Below, piece by piece: positions 6,853 through 11,788 of a stretch of 64,000 bases of DNA. This stretch comes from Pseudotabrizicola algicola (lineage in GTDB: Bacteria; Pseudomonadota; Alphaproteobacteria; Rhodobacterales; Rhodobacteraceae). The notes beneath the pieces were generated by a model. That model saw only the letters and a program-made list of their open reading frames with translations. It ran no database searches and had not been told where the DNA came from. Every line of letters begins with the position of its first letter. Position 1 is the first letter of the stretch. Location: the NCBI RefSeq assembly GCF_010915705.1, contig NZ_JAAIKE010000006.1:1-64000 (forward strand), in the 5' to 3' direction. Position numbers and translations under genes: made by a program.

Positions 6853-7689
6853 TCACACGATGGCTAAAGGAAGCTCAAGACACATCTCCAATCCACGTCC
6901 AGGAACTGGTCGAAATAAATCACCGACTCTAATCTGCGAGTTATACCTTATGAACATCTCACTTGGCGCTACCACTGCAAACCCCGCCACACAGTCCCTA
7001 TAAATTATCAAAAACGCTCCGAAATCAGTCTCATTAGACAAACTGTATCGGTAAGAAAACTTACTGCCAAAACTCTGCGAACGAGTCGCCATTTCGCCAA
7101 CGAACGGCAGAATTTCACAAATTTTTATAGGCGCCCCTGAAAAAATAAATGTGTCTACAGGGAGCCAGGTTACAGATATTCTTTTCGACTTATCCAAAAT
7201 TTCTTTTGTCTCATAGTACCAAAGCGCAGCCGTCTGCTTGGCCAACCATGGATTCAGCCAACGAGTATACAGCCTTCGGTTAACGGGCACCCTGAGAAGT
7301 TCACTTTTATGACCACCGAAGTCACAGTCTATCTCTTTTGCATCACTGCTCCAATCCTGAATGTAACTTAGAACTTCAGGGTAGTTATTTGCAACGCCCT
7401 GCATAAGTTGAAAAGTGTATGGGTTTTCAGCTTTTTCACTAACTGCATCTGCCGTAATTGATACAAACATGGAGGCGACCTGATCCAGCGAGGAAGTCCC
7501 ATGATTGCAGGACGAACATGCCGGGAACTCGAAACCCTTTGGTCTTATTTTATTTTGAAACAACGCGATCGGCGGAGCATGTTCAATAGTTGTGGCCAAA
7601 ACGCTGCCACCACAAAAAATGCAGAGCTTTCCCTCAACTAGCTTTCTGAGACCTTTATTTCTGCTACCCACGCGACGAACTACCCCCAA
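6853..7689 (-). CDS. Putative HNH-fold protein of unknown function, AT-rich (likely acquired)
   Basis: With the TTG at 7689 the product is 278 residues; a GTG at 7671 gives 272. Residues 23-63 hold C-F-C (C23, C26), IEHAPP (E36 H37) and [10 protein letters not shown] (C58, C61, N62, H63), the pattern of zinc-stabilised HNH endonucleases. The remaining 200 residues are aromatic-rich and not recognised by me. Base composition and codon use (many AAA, ATT, TTT and AGA codons) differ sharply from both neighbours, which suggests horizontal transfer. The start overlaps the thyX stop by 10 bases. Nuclease activity is an inference; a zinc-binding non-catalytic role is possible. Confidence 0.6.
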
Positions 7690-8585
7690 ACCCCCTCAAA
7701 CTCCCGCCACTCGCCCTTGCTCATCCCGCTGTCTTCCTGCGTCACCACCTCGCCCGCCAGACGCCGTTTCAGCACCGCGATCGCCTTGGCACTCAGCGTC
7801 ACCCCGCCCATGCGGTAATCCTCGAAGGCGGCATAGGCCAAAGGCACCCAGTCCTTGACGCAGGCCGCAATCGCCTCGGCATAGACGCGGATTTCATATT
7901 GGGCGTGGGCGTCGGCGCGCAGGCGCAGGAAGTGGAACAGGTTGTGCAGGTCGGTCTTCCAGTACCACTGGGTATAGGTGTTCATCGGCAGGTTCATCCG
8001 CGCGAGTTCCCGCGCCAGCCCCTGCTGACCGTCCTGCGACAACATCTGCTCATAGCTGTCAAACGCCTGCCCCGCGTCGCGTTTGAGCATTTCCAGCACC
8101 CGCGCGGCCTCGGCCCCCTCCAGCACCGCGCCGCGCCCCTGATTGTTGACCGTGCTCTGCGCGGCCAGCTGCTCGGGGGCGGGGATGTAGAATTCGCGGT
8201 CCAGAATCGAATAGCGGGCAGAGTATTCGTTCACATTGGCGGTGCGGTGGCGGATCCACTGGCGGGCCACGAAGACCGGCAGTTTCACATGCAGCTTGAT
8301 CTCGCACATCTCGAACGGGGTCGAATGCCAGTGCCGCATCAGATAGCGGATCAGCCCCTCGTCATTCGACACATGCTTGGTGCCGGCGCCATAACTCACG
8401 CGGGCGGCCTGCACGATGGCGGCATCGTCGCCCATGTAGTCGATCACGCGGATGAAGCCGTGGTCCAGCACCTCATGCGCGCGGTACAGATGCGCCTCCA
8501 TCCCCTCGCTCACCGCACGCAAGGTGGGGCGCGGCGTGCTGCGGGCAGCCTCGATTTCGGCGATCTGGTCAGGGGAAAGCGGCAT
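7680..8585 (-). CDS. thyX: FAD-dependent thymidylate synthase
   Basis: ThyX converts dUMP to dTMP with methylene-tetrahydrofolate, FAD and NADPH. The signature [15 protein letters not shown] (RHRx7S) is present, along with [20 protein letters not shown] before it and a C-terminal [20 protein letters not shown] segment that contacts nucleotide and flavin. The ATG at 8585 (301 residues, [11 protein letters not shown]) follows GAAAGG by eight bases; a GTG at 8615 would extend it by ten residues. Length is within the family range. The gene is followed with a 10-base overlap by the AT-rich HNH-like frame, which probably inserted at its 3' end. Confidence 0.95.
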
Positions 8586-8784
8586 GGGACGGGCCTTTCG
8601 AATCCGGGCGTTCACAACATGTGGGCGTCATTGGCGCGCAGGATACGAGAGGTTGGGGAACCGTCGCAAGGGTGCGCGGCAATTCTGCATCAGGCGCCTG
8701 TGCAGGCGCATGGATTCATTGACACAATGCCGTGAGAAAGGCAGTTTTGTCCGCAAAATAACACCTATAATCGAGCAGGTAATC

Positions 8785-9888
8785 ATGAAGTGGCGTGTGA
8801 TCGCGGTCCTCGGGGCCGGTCTGGCCGTGGCAAGCTGTGGCAGCGGCGGCAACCCGTTTGGCAACGCACCCCAATGCGGCGGCAACCCGCTCGCAGGCAC
8901 CCCCTGCCCCGACCCGACCCCGCCCGACCCGACGCCGACCCCGCCCGAAGACGGGCCGGGCGGCCTGCCCGGCACCGAGACGCCCAGCGCCGCCACGCCC
9001 ATCATCCGCTATGAAGACGTCAGCGACGACACCGGCAACGGCTATGCGCAGGGCTTCACCTTCAATGCCGCCGACAACACCTATACGGTCGACAACCTCG
9101 CCTTCGACGGCGGCAACGATTATCGCAAGCGTCTGGGGCAACCCGTGGACCGGCTCGGCGGATACGAGGTCTACGAGGCGGCGGCCGAGGTGCGCGACCC
9201 GCAGACCGGCGCGCTGATCCCGCAGTTCGAACACAAGCTGCTGGCCGGTGTCAGCCGCAGCGGCCGCACCGAATTTGCCATCGTGCGCACGGGGGCCTAT
9301 CGCGGCTACGGCTTTGGCGGCTTCGTGATGAAGCGCAACGACAATTTCGTGCGCCCGCCCAATCCGCCCAGCGGGGCCAATCAGGCCGCCTATTCCGGCA
9401 ATTACGCCGCCGTGCGTGACTTCGACGGGGCCTCGGGGCTGGAATATGCCACGGGCGCGATGACCATCGCCATCGACTTCAACGACTTCAACCGCGGCGA
9501 TGCGGTCAAGGGCACCGTCAGCAACCGCCAGATTTTCGATGCCAACGGCACCAACATCACCGCGCGCGTGCTCGAAGCGATGGATGCCAAGTTCGACCGC
9601 GACGACAAGGCCCCCGCCACCCGCGAATTGCCCACGCTGGTCTTTGCGGTCGGCCCCGGTGCGATCAACGCCAATGGCGAGATCGGCGGCCTGCTCGACA
9701 GTTCCGTGATCGACTATAACGGTGACCGCGCCCGCGTGGTGACCTATGAAGCCGGCAAGTATTACGGCGTCGTCTCCGGCCCCAATGCCGACGAGGTGGT
9801 GGGCGTGATCGTGATCGAGGCCGAGGACCCGCGCATCGACGGCGTGACCGTGCGCGAAACAGGTGGCTTCATCCTCTACCGGCCATGA
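8785..9888 (+). CDS. Predicted surface-exposed lipoprotein with TbpB-like barrel (Slam substrate candidate)
   Basis: The 367-residue protein starts MKWRVIAVLGAGLAVASC, a lipoprotein signal with the lipidated cysteine at residue 18. A cysteine- and proline-rich linker (to about residue 70, with PTPPDPTPTPPE) precedes a beta-rich body. The last 150 residues carry a SGPNADEVVGVIVIE segment like the closing strands of TbpB-type eight-stranded barrels. The next gene overlaps by ATGA and encodes a Slam-like outer-membrane protein, which in Neisseria and relatives moves such lipoproteins to the cell surface. The ligand is unknown; metal or heme carriers are only examples from the family. The ATG at 8785 is preferred since it yields the signal peptide. 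Confidence 0.65.
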   Translation: MKWRVIAVLGAGLAVASCGSGGNPFGNAPQCGGNPLAGTPCPDPTPPDPTPTPPEDGPGGLPGTETPSAATPIIRYEDVSDDTGNGYAQGFTFNAADNTYTVDNLAFDGGNDYRKRLGQPVDRLGGYEVYEAAAEVRDPQTGALIPQFEHKLLAGVSRSGRTEFAIVRTGAYRGYGFGGFVMKRNDNFVRPPNPPSGANQAAYSGNYAAVRDFDGASGLEYATGAMTIAIDFNDFNRGDAVKGTVSNRQIFDANGTNITARVLEAMDAKFDRDDKAPATRELPTLVFAVGPGAINANGEIGGLLDSSVIDYNGDRARVVTYEAGKYYGVVSGPNADEVVGVIVIEAEDPRIDGVTVRETGGFILYRP

Positions 9889-11294
9889 GCGGCACGGGCG
9901 CAGCGACAGTCCGGGCGAAATCGGTCCGCCGCGCCGGCGCGGCCCTCAGGGCGGCGGCGCTCTGCCTCGGGCTGATGGCGGCAGGCGCGGTGGCACAGGC
10001 CGCGCCGCTGGTGCTGACGCCCGAAGGCATGGTGCAGATGGCGGTCACCCTTCTGGACCGCGGCGAGCCCGCACAGGCCGAACGCTTTGCCGACGCGCTG
10101 CTGCAACAAAACCCGAAGGACGCCACCGCGCTGATCCTCAAGGCACGGGCGCAGCGCGACATGGCGGCCTATCCGCAATCGCGCGCCACCGCCCGCCTCG
10201 CCTGGACAGGGGCCACCCTCCCCCGCGAACGCTATGGCGCGGCGATGGCCATGGCGCAGGCGCTGGCCTCGGACGGGCAAAGACTGCGCGCCCAGCTCTG
10301 GCTGCGCCGCGCGATCGATGCCGCCCCCACCGAGACCGCCCGCGCGGTCGCCGTGCGCGACCTGCGCTATGTGCGCAACCGCAGCCGCCTGTCGCTGCGG
10401 CTGGACTTTTCGGTGCGCCCCTCGTCCAACGTGAACGGCGGCACCTCCGAGCGTGTGATCGATTTTCTGGGCCTACCGCTGACCATCGCCCCCGACAGCC
10501 GCGCCCTCTCGGGCGGGGTCGTGCAGGCGGCGGCAACCGCGCAATACCGCCTCGCGGAAAGCGCCGCCGCCAAGACAGACCTGCGCTTCGGCCTCATCCA
10601 GCGCGAGGTCTGGCTTTCCTCCGCCGCCAAGGCCGCCGCCCCGATGGCCCGCGCCGGAAACTACCGCCTCTCCGGCTACGAGATCGGGCTCGACCGCGCC
10701 GTGAAACTGCCTGCCCTGCAAGGCGAGGCCACGGCGGCGCTCACCTTTGGCCACAACCGTTTTGGCGGCAGCCCGATGTCGGATTACGCCCGCGTGGATC
10801 TGGGCCTGTCGCGCCAGCTTGCACCCCGCCTGACGGTAGAATTCGGCCTCACCGCCGAACGCCAGCGGCGTCTCGATGCGCCAAACCGCTCGGCCAATAT
10901 CCTCGGCGCCAGCGCGGGGCTGACCCGGCAGCTTGACGGCGGCGACCGTGTGGGCGTCACCCTCGATCTGCGCGACACCCGCTCGCGCGCCGACAGCATC
11001 GACCACCGCGCCATCAGCGCCGATCTGACATGGACAAAGGCCGAACCGGTGCGCGGCATCGGTCTGTCGGCGGGCATGGGGCTGGCCGCCCGCGACTATG
11101 ACCGCGCCGCCCTCAGCCCCGATGGCCGCCAGGATGTGACCCTGCGGGCAGAGGCAAATCTCGCGCTGCAAGAGCTTGACCGCATGGGCTTCATGCCGGT
11201 GCTCTCGGTCAGGGCCGAGCGCACCCGCTCCAACATCGCGCTCCACCGCGCGCAATCGCTCGGCCTTGGCCTGTCGATCCGCTCAAAGTTCTGA
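9885..11294 (+). CDS. Slam-like surface lipoprotein assembly modifier (TPR + outer-membrane barrel)
   Basis: The 469-residue protein has a signal peptide (hydrophobic RAAALCLGLMAAGAVA, cleavage near residue 40), a periplasmic TPR-like region (about 45-150, with DRGEPAQAERFADALLQQNP), and from about residue 165 a long beta-strand region opening with LSLRLDFSVRPSSNVNGGT, the hallmark start of the Slam barrel (DUF560). It ends in aromatic F469, as outer-membrane barrels do. Slams help lipoproteins cross the outer membrane. Translational coupling (ATGA overlap) to the preceding lipoprotein gene points to a cognate pair. It could instead be a TPR-barrel porin of another type; the pairing argues for Slam. 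Confidence 0.65.
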   Translation: MSGTGAATVRAKSVRRAGAALRAAALCLGLMAAGAVAQAAPLVLTPEGMVQMAVTLLDRGEPAQAERFADALLQQNPKDATALILKARAQRDMAAYPQSRATARLAWTGATLPRERYGAAMAMAQALASDGQRLRAQLWLRRAIDAAPTETARAVAVRDLRYVRNRSRLSLRLDFSVRPSSNVNGGTSERVIDFLGLPLTIAPDSRALSGGVVQAAATAQYRLAESAAAKTDLRFGLIQREVWLSSAAKAAAPMARAGNYRLSGYEIGLDRAVKLPALQGEATAALTFGHNRFGGSPMSDYARVDLGLSRQLAPRLTVEFGLTAERQRRLDAPNRSANILGASAGLTRQLDGGDRVGVTLDLRDTRSRADSIDHRAISADLTWTKAEPVRGIGLSAGMGLAARDYDRAALSPDGRQDVTLRAEANLALQELDRMGFMPVLSVRAERTRSNIALHRAQSLGLGLSIRSKF

Positions 11295-11359: not shown

Positions 11360-11788
11360 ATGGCACTGAAATACCTGCACACAATGGTCCGGGTTCTCGA
11401 CCTCGAGGCCTCTATGGCCTTCTACCGCCTTCTCGGGCTTGAAGAAACGCGGCGGCATGACAGCGAGAAGGGCCGCTTCTCGCTCATTTTCATGGCCCCT
11501 CCGGGCCAGCCGGAATGTCCGGTGGAACTGACCTACAACTGGGATGGCGATGACGGCCTGCCGTCGGACAGCCGCCATTTCGGCCATCTCGCCTATGAGG
11601 TGGACAACATCTACGAAACCTGCGCCCATCTGCAGGCCAATGGCGTCACCATCAACCGCCCTCCCCGCGATGGCCGCATGGCCTTTGTCCGCAGCCCCGA
11701 CAACATCTCGATCGAACTGCTGCAAAAGGGCGAGGCTCTCGCTCCGGCCGAACCTTGGGCCAGCATGGAAAACACCGGCCACTGGTAA
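11360..11788 (+). CDS. gloA: Lactoylglutathione lyase (glyoxalase I)
   Basis: This 142-residue enzyme isomerises the methylglyoxal-glutathione hemithioacetal to S-lactoylglutathione. Metal ligands of the two vicinal-oxygen-chelate modules are visible: H7 (KYLHTMVRV), E56 (CPVELTYN), H76 (FGHLAYEV) and E119 (NISIELLQ). The family motif NWDGDDGL is present in altered form in the middle. ACAGGAGA six bases upstream sets the start at 11360; an overlapping ATG at 11355 is out of frame. A bidirectional hairpin terminator lies downstream. Confidence 0.95.
   Translation: MALKYLHTMVRVLDLEASMAFYRLLGLEETRRHDSEKGRFSLIFMAPPGQPECPVELTYNWDGDDGLPSDSRHFGHLAYEVDNIYETCAHLQANGVTINRPPRDGRMAFVRSPDNISIELLQKGEALAPAEPWASMENTGHW

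Follow-up and report, generated by a model that had tools for sequence, protein, structure and literature searches.

A Slam-like translocator and its putative surface lipoprotein share a fixed thyX-gloA site in Rhodobacteraceae and appear to be exchanged as a linked cassette

The window analysed here, that is, the whole stretch of 64,000 nucleotides at positions 1 to 64,000 of contig NZ_JAAIKE010000006.1 of Pseudotabrizicola algicola (RefSeq assembly GCF_010915705.1), carries on its forward strand a pair of genes located between thyX and gloA. The first open reading frame (ORF), at 8785-9888 (+), encodes a lipoprotein of 367 aa with the lipobox LAVAS-C18, which we refer to as the cargo, and the second, at 9885-11294 (+), encodes a Slam-like outer-membrane protein (OMP) of 469 aa of the type 11 secretion system (T11SS). 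It is likely, with a probability of roughly 0.72, that this pair occupies a constant chromosomal position flanked by thyX and gloA, and that the cargo body and the OMP are swapped as a linked cassette or lost together. The parts of the locus are as follows.

7680..8615, minus strand: thyX, encoding flavin-dependent thymidylate synthase, the resident left flank (Pfam Thy1, 193.1 bits; UvrB-ThyX correlation 0.38; adjoins gloA in genomes without the pair)
8616..8784, plus strand: divergent intergenic region 5' of the cargo gene, resembling the empty site of genome G135 to about 8730
8785..8907, plus strand: N-terminal part of the cargo, with signal peptide, lipid-bearing Cys18 (8836-8838), the stalk with its Asn-Pro-Phe (NPF) motif, and the extra Cys31 and Cys41
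8908..9039, plus strand: Pro/Thr/Gly-rich linker of low conservation (DNA homology with two genomes of the window's genus, G590 and G581, extends to 8866 and 8945, respectively)
9040..9378, plus strand: handle or pedestal of the cargo, residues 86-198
9379..9879, plus strand: C-terminal eight-stranded TbpB/fHbp-like barrel of the cargo, residues 199-365
9885..9888, plus strand: ATGA overlap of the cargo stop and OMP start, from the sequence
9885..11294, plus strand: T11SS (Slam/DUF560) outer-membrane translocator, with signal region, tetratricopeptide repeats (TPR), barrel and terminal Phe
10020-10379, plus strand: TPR domain of the OMP
10389-11291, plus strand: 14-strand barrel of the OMP
11360..11788, plus strand: gloA, glyoxalase/lactoylglutathione lyase family, the resident right flank (Pfam Glyoxalase, 64.8 bits; UvrB-GloA correlation 0.54; adjoins thyX in genomes without the pair)

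The initial annotation of this DNA had proposed that a lipoprotein with a TbpB-like C-terminal barrel overlaps by ATGA a Slam-like protein made of TPR and a barrel, and each part of this description was borne out, including the overlap. The window cargo by itself matched no Pfam or NCBIfam family, and a sequence search of the PDB was likewise unproductive. Among 93 aligned cargo homologues, FHBP_C was matched by 27 (best 1.1e-6) and TbpB_B_D by 22 (best 6.2e-7) at E<=0.1, and a PDB search with the cargo profile returned weak fHbp matches only (best E 0.051). An AlphaFold 2 model of the cargo, built from a 6-row alignment, had a mean predicted local distance difference test score (pLDDT) of 58.6, with values of 62-86 for the ten-residue blocks from 201 on, and placed eight C-terminal strands at 200-365. 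With this model, Foldseek ranked TbpB (3hol) first with E 8.6e-6, while VIA-align ranked fHbp (8bk2) first with Z 13.8, a root-mean-square deviation of 3.0 and 170 aligned residues, with hemophilins (8glo, 8gmm, 6om5, 7rea) at Z about 11 and with NHBA and the TbpB C-lobe also scoring high. Generic eight-strand barrels, OmpX among them, reached a similar Z (11.1), and the fold assignment is therefore carried by the Foldseek ranking and the family matches. The cargo is thus modelled as a lipoprotein with a C-terminal barrel like those of TbpB, fHbp and hemophilin. The characteristics of a Slam-dependent surface lipoprotein, namely a signal peptidase II (SPII) lipobox, an eight-stranded barrel and a gene beside a Slam gene, are all present.

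A T11SS/Slam OMP consists of an N-terminal TPR domain followed by an outer-membrane barrel of about 14 strands, and this is the architecture found in the window OMP. Residues 303-454 matched PF04575 SlipAM with 24.2 bits, above the Pfam cut-off of 22, residues 47-89 matched TPR_14 with 24.5 bits (cut-off 23.5), and the AlphaFold 2 model (mean pLDDT 82.9) showed helices at 46-165 and then 14 long strands, so that barrel strands, on which the initial annotation had made its proposal depend, were modelled in both proteins. SlipAM was matched by 72 of the 98 aligned OMP homologues at E<=0.01, and 96 of the 98 end in Phe. A PDB sequence search with the OMP gave nothing useful, and the fold search ranked BcsC and PelBC first, with no Slam structure among the 50 matches listed. 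The SlipAM match and the combination of TPR domain and barrel identify the OMP as a T11SS (Slam-like) protein and, by analogy with that family, it is probably the pore that exports the cargo lipoprotein.

The two genes are coupled well beyond the window. Of 248 genomes of the family, 134 have a match to the window OMP at E<=1e-3, including 120 with E<1e-20, and 118 have a match to the cargo profile at E<=1e-10. When strong matches were cross-tabulated, 114 genomes had both genes, 6 had only the OMP, 4 had only the cargo and 124 had neither (Fisher p 2e-57); three of the four cargo-only genomes have a weak OMP match. Homologues of the two genes that never co-occur, the outcome that would have spoken against the coupling first proposed, were therefore not what was seen: 114 genomes had both against 10 with a single one. 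In contrast, the suggestion that such a pair is unusual in an alphaproteobacterium was not supported, given the 134 genomes with OMP homologues and the loci of this kind described in the accessible part of PMC12282271. Among 106 loci, most of which occupy the same site, gloA was detected in 98 and thyX in 79, and the upstream ORF has a lipobox by rule in 96. In 89 of these 96, the stop of the cargo and the start of the OMP are no more than 20 nt apart, with OMP starts chosen by a rule that permitted none further back than 20 nt. The 10 loci without a rule-based lipobox start were left out of the cargo alignment; L062, L068 and L102 among them have a cargo by profile, and L054 has a fragment at its end. 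Also left out were L078, L080 and L081, whose upstream ORF is weak, short or odd. L111, L131 and L093 have an OMP and no upstream cargo by profile, and L081 gave a weak match (E 3e-4). In a class-wide sample the OMP profile matched 3 of 5 genomes of the family and 22 of 332 others, the latter at E 4e-36 or weaker, and 12 of 16 genomes of the window's genus have an OMP of the window's clade at E<1e-90. One OMP match per genome is the rule; a few genomes carry two or three OMPs of the window type, located on separate contigs or at a distance from one another (G497, with L228 and L251; G129; G163). Other SlipAM OMPs, several scoring far higher, are found elsewhere in genomes of the family (L206-L225), and a scan of these twenty loci with the cargo profile gave 4 ORFs at E<=0.01, all weak matches, distributed over 3 of the loci.

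Inheritance of the pair was compared with that of its flanks through patristic distances, using loci with complete flanks only (51 of 57 genomes, and likewise 65 of the 106 loci and 9 of the 12 genomes of the window's genus that have the OMP). Across the 51 genomes, distances of the flanking proteins followed those of UvrB and of each other (UvrB-ThyX 0.38, UvrB-GloA 0.54, ThyX-GloA 0.30) and the OMP followed the cargo (0.63), each value being reached by 0 of 300 permutations, whereas UvrB was correlated with neither the OMP (-0.10; 270 of 300 permutations) nor the cargo (-0.01; 164 of 300). Trimming the cargos to the lipid Cys left the picture unchanged (OMP-cargo 0.62, UvrB-cargo 0.00), and the 65 loci, with ThyX and GloA as reference, gave the same pattern (0.02 and -0.04 versus 0.54). 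Within the window's genus, identity is 87-97% for ThyX (21 pairs) and 82-96% for GloA (66 pairs), but 22-62% for the OMP (66 pairs; 25-62% when the truncated OMP of G594 is omitted) and 23-72% for the mature cargo (55 pairs). The ThyX, GloA and OMP comparison includes, besides this truncated OMP, a partial ThyX (G587) and the flanks of the empty-site genome G135; the cargos were first compared from the first start codon, and the comparison was then repeated with mature proteins. The UvrB tree allows the genus as a single clade (approximately unbiased (AU) test, p 0.82).

The N-terminal end of the cargo behaves differently from the rest. In nine genomes of the window's genus, the N-terminal 29 aa of the cargo follow UvrB (0.69; 2 of 2000 permutations) and follow neither the cargo body (0.00) nor the OMP body (-0.08), while the two bodies follow each other (0.34; 59 of 2000 permutations). 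Since these 29 residues track the species and the body does not, the pair behaves like an exchangeable cassette placed behind a lipid-anchor stalk that stays with its host. At the DNA level, the window and G590 share 88% similarity over 7681-8866, a stretch that reaches codon 27 of the cargo gene, after which similarity stops and resumes at 11256. It is therefore probable from these alignments that the left crossover falls just past the stalk, and the right crossover would lie at or beyond the end of the OMP in most cases, at a position that the data do not pin down. The stalk of the window cargo contains two further Cys (31 and 41) and two NP[FL] motifs, followed by the Pro-rich linker and the beta-rich body. 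Of 93 cargos, 72 have a motif of the form [NQST]P[FLWIH] no more than 12 residues from the lipid Cys, compared with 2.8 on average and 11 at most in 2000 shuffles, and columns 19-26 of the window cargo, without the lipid Cys, have a conservation of 0.43 versus 0.31 for the handle and 0.31 for the barrel. The motif was found in 0 of 7 other lipoprotein-like ORFs, a control too small to establish that it is specific to T11SS cargos, and its conservation may be owed in part to linkage with the flank. The initial annotation had taken an unusual Cys/Pro-rich stalk, together with the lack of a neighbouring TonB receptor, as a sign that the ligand may be new. The extra Cys and the Pro-rich linker are indeed there, but the two Cys are common to 6 of 11 cargos of the genus, whose bodies are unlike (no Cys occurs in that stretch in 92 of 92 others), and the stalk was therefore rejected as a mark of the ligand of the window cargo.

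Several observations weigh against exchange as the explanation. The non-monophyly of the genus in the OMP tree is marginal (AU p 0.040, from a quick tree with 10 rows of the genus and 36 others), and the OMP tree needs 3 changes for the genus versus 9.1 in shuffles, which places the genus in few clusters and thus implies that much was inherited or exchanged locally. Nearest neighbours also agree more often than the 3 expected: in 11 of 51 cases the genome closest by UvrB ranks among the first three by OMP, and in 16 of 51 the genome closest by OMP ranks among the first three by UvrB. The flanks themselves agree only partly with UvrB (a rank among the first three in 16 of 51 for GloA and 21 of 51 for ThyX). 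Furthermore, OMP end branches are long, so that saturation adds noise, the linkage of OMP and cargo within the genus is imperfect (0.34), the last 13 residues of the OMP follow the OMP body (0.76) rather than UvrB (0.20) in the nine genomes of the genus, and the cargo model is of modest confidence. The few clusters and long branches, together with the common site of most homologues fetched, would also fit a T11SS pair that is vertically inherited and evolves fast, in which low identity reflects rate instead of exchange. We consider this unlikely, because the OMP and cargo track each other and not UvrB, which ThyX and GloA do track, and because G590, whose flanks have 97% (ThyX) and 92% (GloA) identity to those of the window, has an OMP of 34% identity and a mature cargo of 29%, whereas G591 and G581, with more distant flanks (89% and 85%), have an OMP of 57%. 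Another possibility is that several ancient paralogous pairs underwent differential loss and no transfer took place, for which the genomes with two or three OMP matches (G497, G129 and G163) could be cited. This is distinctly improbable, because a single OMP match per genome is the rule, and because an N-terminal stalk that tracks the species while attached to unlike bodies requires recombination anyway.

The fold neighbours of the cargo, hemophilins and the TbpB C-lobe among them, raise the question of whether it scavenges heme, iron or another metal, and this resemblance is the single observation that points to an iron or heme role. As the initial annotation had noted for the neighbourhood, no TonB-dependent receptor was found among the 34 ORFs of the window that were scanned (cargo and OMP included; the window has 125 ORFs of at least 150 aa), the rest of the genome not having been searched. 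In the cargo alignment, the well conserved columns are mostly Gly, Tyr, Asp and Arg, and none is His or a non-lipid Cys. These two results argue weakly against heme or iron uptake and, with a TonB link being rare also among the published loci of this type, as far as the accessible part of PMC12282271 describes them, scavenging is an unlikely role.

Sites lacking the pair were analysed in a sample of 16 genomes, taken from the 114 in which the OMP had no match. gloA was present in 16 of these 16 and thyX in 13, and in the 13 with both they lie next to each other in divergent orientation, with a spacing, measured between match ends, of about 58-267 nt in 11 and of 600 and 1008 nt in the other two. 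In G135, which belongs to the window's genus, the DNA resembles the window as far as about 8730 and again from just past the OMP stop. The pair therefore occurs or is missing as a whole at one constant position, and the adjacency of thyX and gloA is independent of it. Three genomes of the sample, G014, G026 and G035, have another SlipAM OMP elsewhere. The strong neighbourhood (98 and 79 of 106 loci) and its published co-occurrence, in the accessible part of PMC12282271, would suit a working unit of the pair with thyX and gloA in folate/one-carbon metabolism or in a nickel or aldehyde response. However, such a unit is very improbable: gloA is retained in every pair-less genome of the sample, thyX and gloA remain adjacent in 11 of 13 of them, and their distances follow UvrB, unlike those of the pair, for which reasons they were rejected as functional partners. 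That the OMP is instead a BcsC/PelB-like polysaccharide channel with the lipoprotein as its subunit, as its best PDB folds might suggest with no Slam among those 50 matches, is hardly tenable given a SlipAM score above cut-off, a cargo with the fold of a Slam substrate and no synthase among the scanned neighbours.

Under the cassette exchange that we favour, and as far as knowledge of the family can be applied, the cargo would be made as a Sec/SPII lipoprotein and delivered to the outer membrane, where the OMP encoded next door would recognise it through its C-terminal barrel and flip it to the cell surface, with the lipid and the flexible NPF stalk holding it there; surface display of the cargo is thus suggested by family membership. 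At the thyX-gloA slot, related species would trade the cargo body and OMP as one linked unit, or lose both at once. Recombination within the conserved flanking DNA would drive these changes, the crossovers being deduced from tree and similarity patterns that are themselves observed. Because the left crossover would often fall inside the cargo gene just past the stalk, the promoter region, signal peptide, lipid Cys and NPF stalk would stay with the chromosome, and the body would change with the translocator. A swap of an exposed protein together with its matched exporter seems to fit diversifying or frequency-dependent selection on the surface better than housekeeping iron uptake, and the exchange pattern suggests phage, grazers, competitors or ligand recognition as candidate selective agents. 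We tentatively extend this to a modular display slot, although the odds are against it in full: the host would keep the promoter, the signal peptide and a lipidated NPF(-Cys) stalk, and cassettes of body and matched translocator, which would travel together because translocation would be pair-specific, would recombine across species and diversify the surface against phage, grazers and rivals. If this is true, the conserved NPF beside the lipid could be a host-encoded sorting or spacing signal common to all cassettes.

A perfect inverted repeat, CATTG-ACA-CAATG, lies at 8717-8729 between thyX and the cargo gene, is retained in G135, and is possibly an operator. The promoter scan returned no promoter, and terminators were not above chance. 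Adjoining thyX, an ORF of 278 aa at 6853-7689 (-) has no Pfam match, and tblastn detected no homologue of it in the DNA fetched around the other 105 loci, for many of which the sequence breaks off shortly past thyX; its two CxxC motifs may point to an HNH-type protein. Near the left end of the window, the ORF at 331-2085 matches R subunits of type I restriction enzymes over their C-terminal part.

Among known systems, Neisseria Slam1 and Slam2 with TbpB, LbpB, HpuA and fHbp, as described in the accessible parts of PMC5449769 and PMC8406197, likewise combine a SlipAM-type OMP with an adjacent lipoprotein whose C-terminal barrel is TbpB-like, but the window pair differs in distant sequence, a single handle-barrel unit, the lack of a TonB receptor among scanned neighbours, and in being known from sequence. 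Hemophilin-type cargos with a TXISS-1B OMP have the same single handle-plus-barrel architecture (VIA-align Z about 11), but they are almost all soluble according to the accessible text of PMC8406197, whereas the window cargo has a lipobox and no well conserved His or non-lipid Cys. The closest likeness is to the syntenic "cluster 3 T11SS" locus of 11 Rhodobacteraceae and Roseobacteraceae strains (Grossman et al. 2025; PMC12282271), reported, in what is accessible of that paper, to consist of thyX, a barrel lipoprotein (10 of 11), a T11SS OMP, gloA and DUF1194. The comparison, made through its text and Fig. 8 legend, shows the same core genes as in the window (thyX, an SPII cargo with a C-terminal 8-strand barrel, a T11SS OMP and gloA), and Sulfitobacter delicatus, named there, is locus L006 of the present set. 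DUF1194 is found near 102 of 145 loci and in all 11 of Fig. 8, as a companion that does not define the locus, while the sole DUF1194 match of the window genome lies on contig C24 and the window on C26. From family and gene content, with the core neighbours thyX and gloA present, the window pair thus appears to resemble cluster 3. That paper, in its accessible text, discusses folate/one-carbon, nickel and aldehyde-response links from the thyX and gloA neighbours and does not contain the words "recombination" or "exchange"; we found no account of exchange of such pairs, judging from the titles and abstract openings listed in a coverage that leaves out most subscription journals. Cluster 3 pairs are common in Rhodobacteraceae, and recognising thyX and gloA as mere flanks weakens one functional lead. 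The exchange pattern makes two ideas testable, an exporter-cargo specificity that forces joint movement and surface selection for replacement, and the pair therefore offers a helpful natural setting in which to study the selection that acts on surface proteins of this kind. The type of pair is already known in Rhodobacteraceae, and to it are added here the co-occurrence of the two genes, the empty sites, the cassette exchange and the resident stalk.

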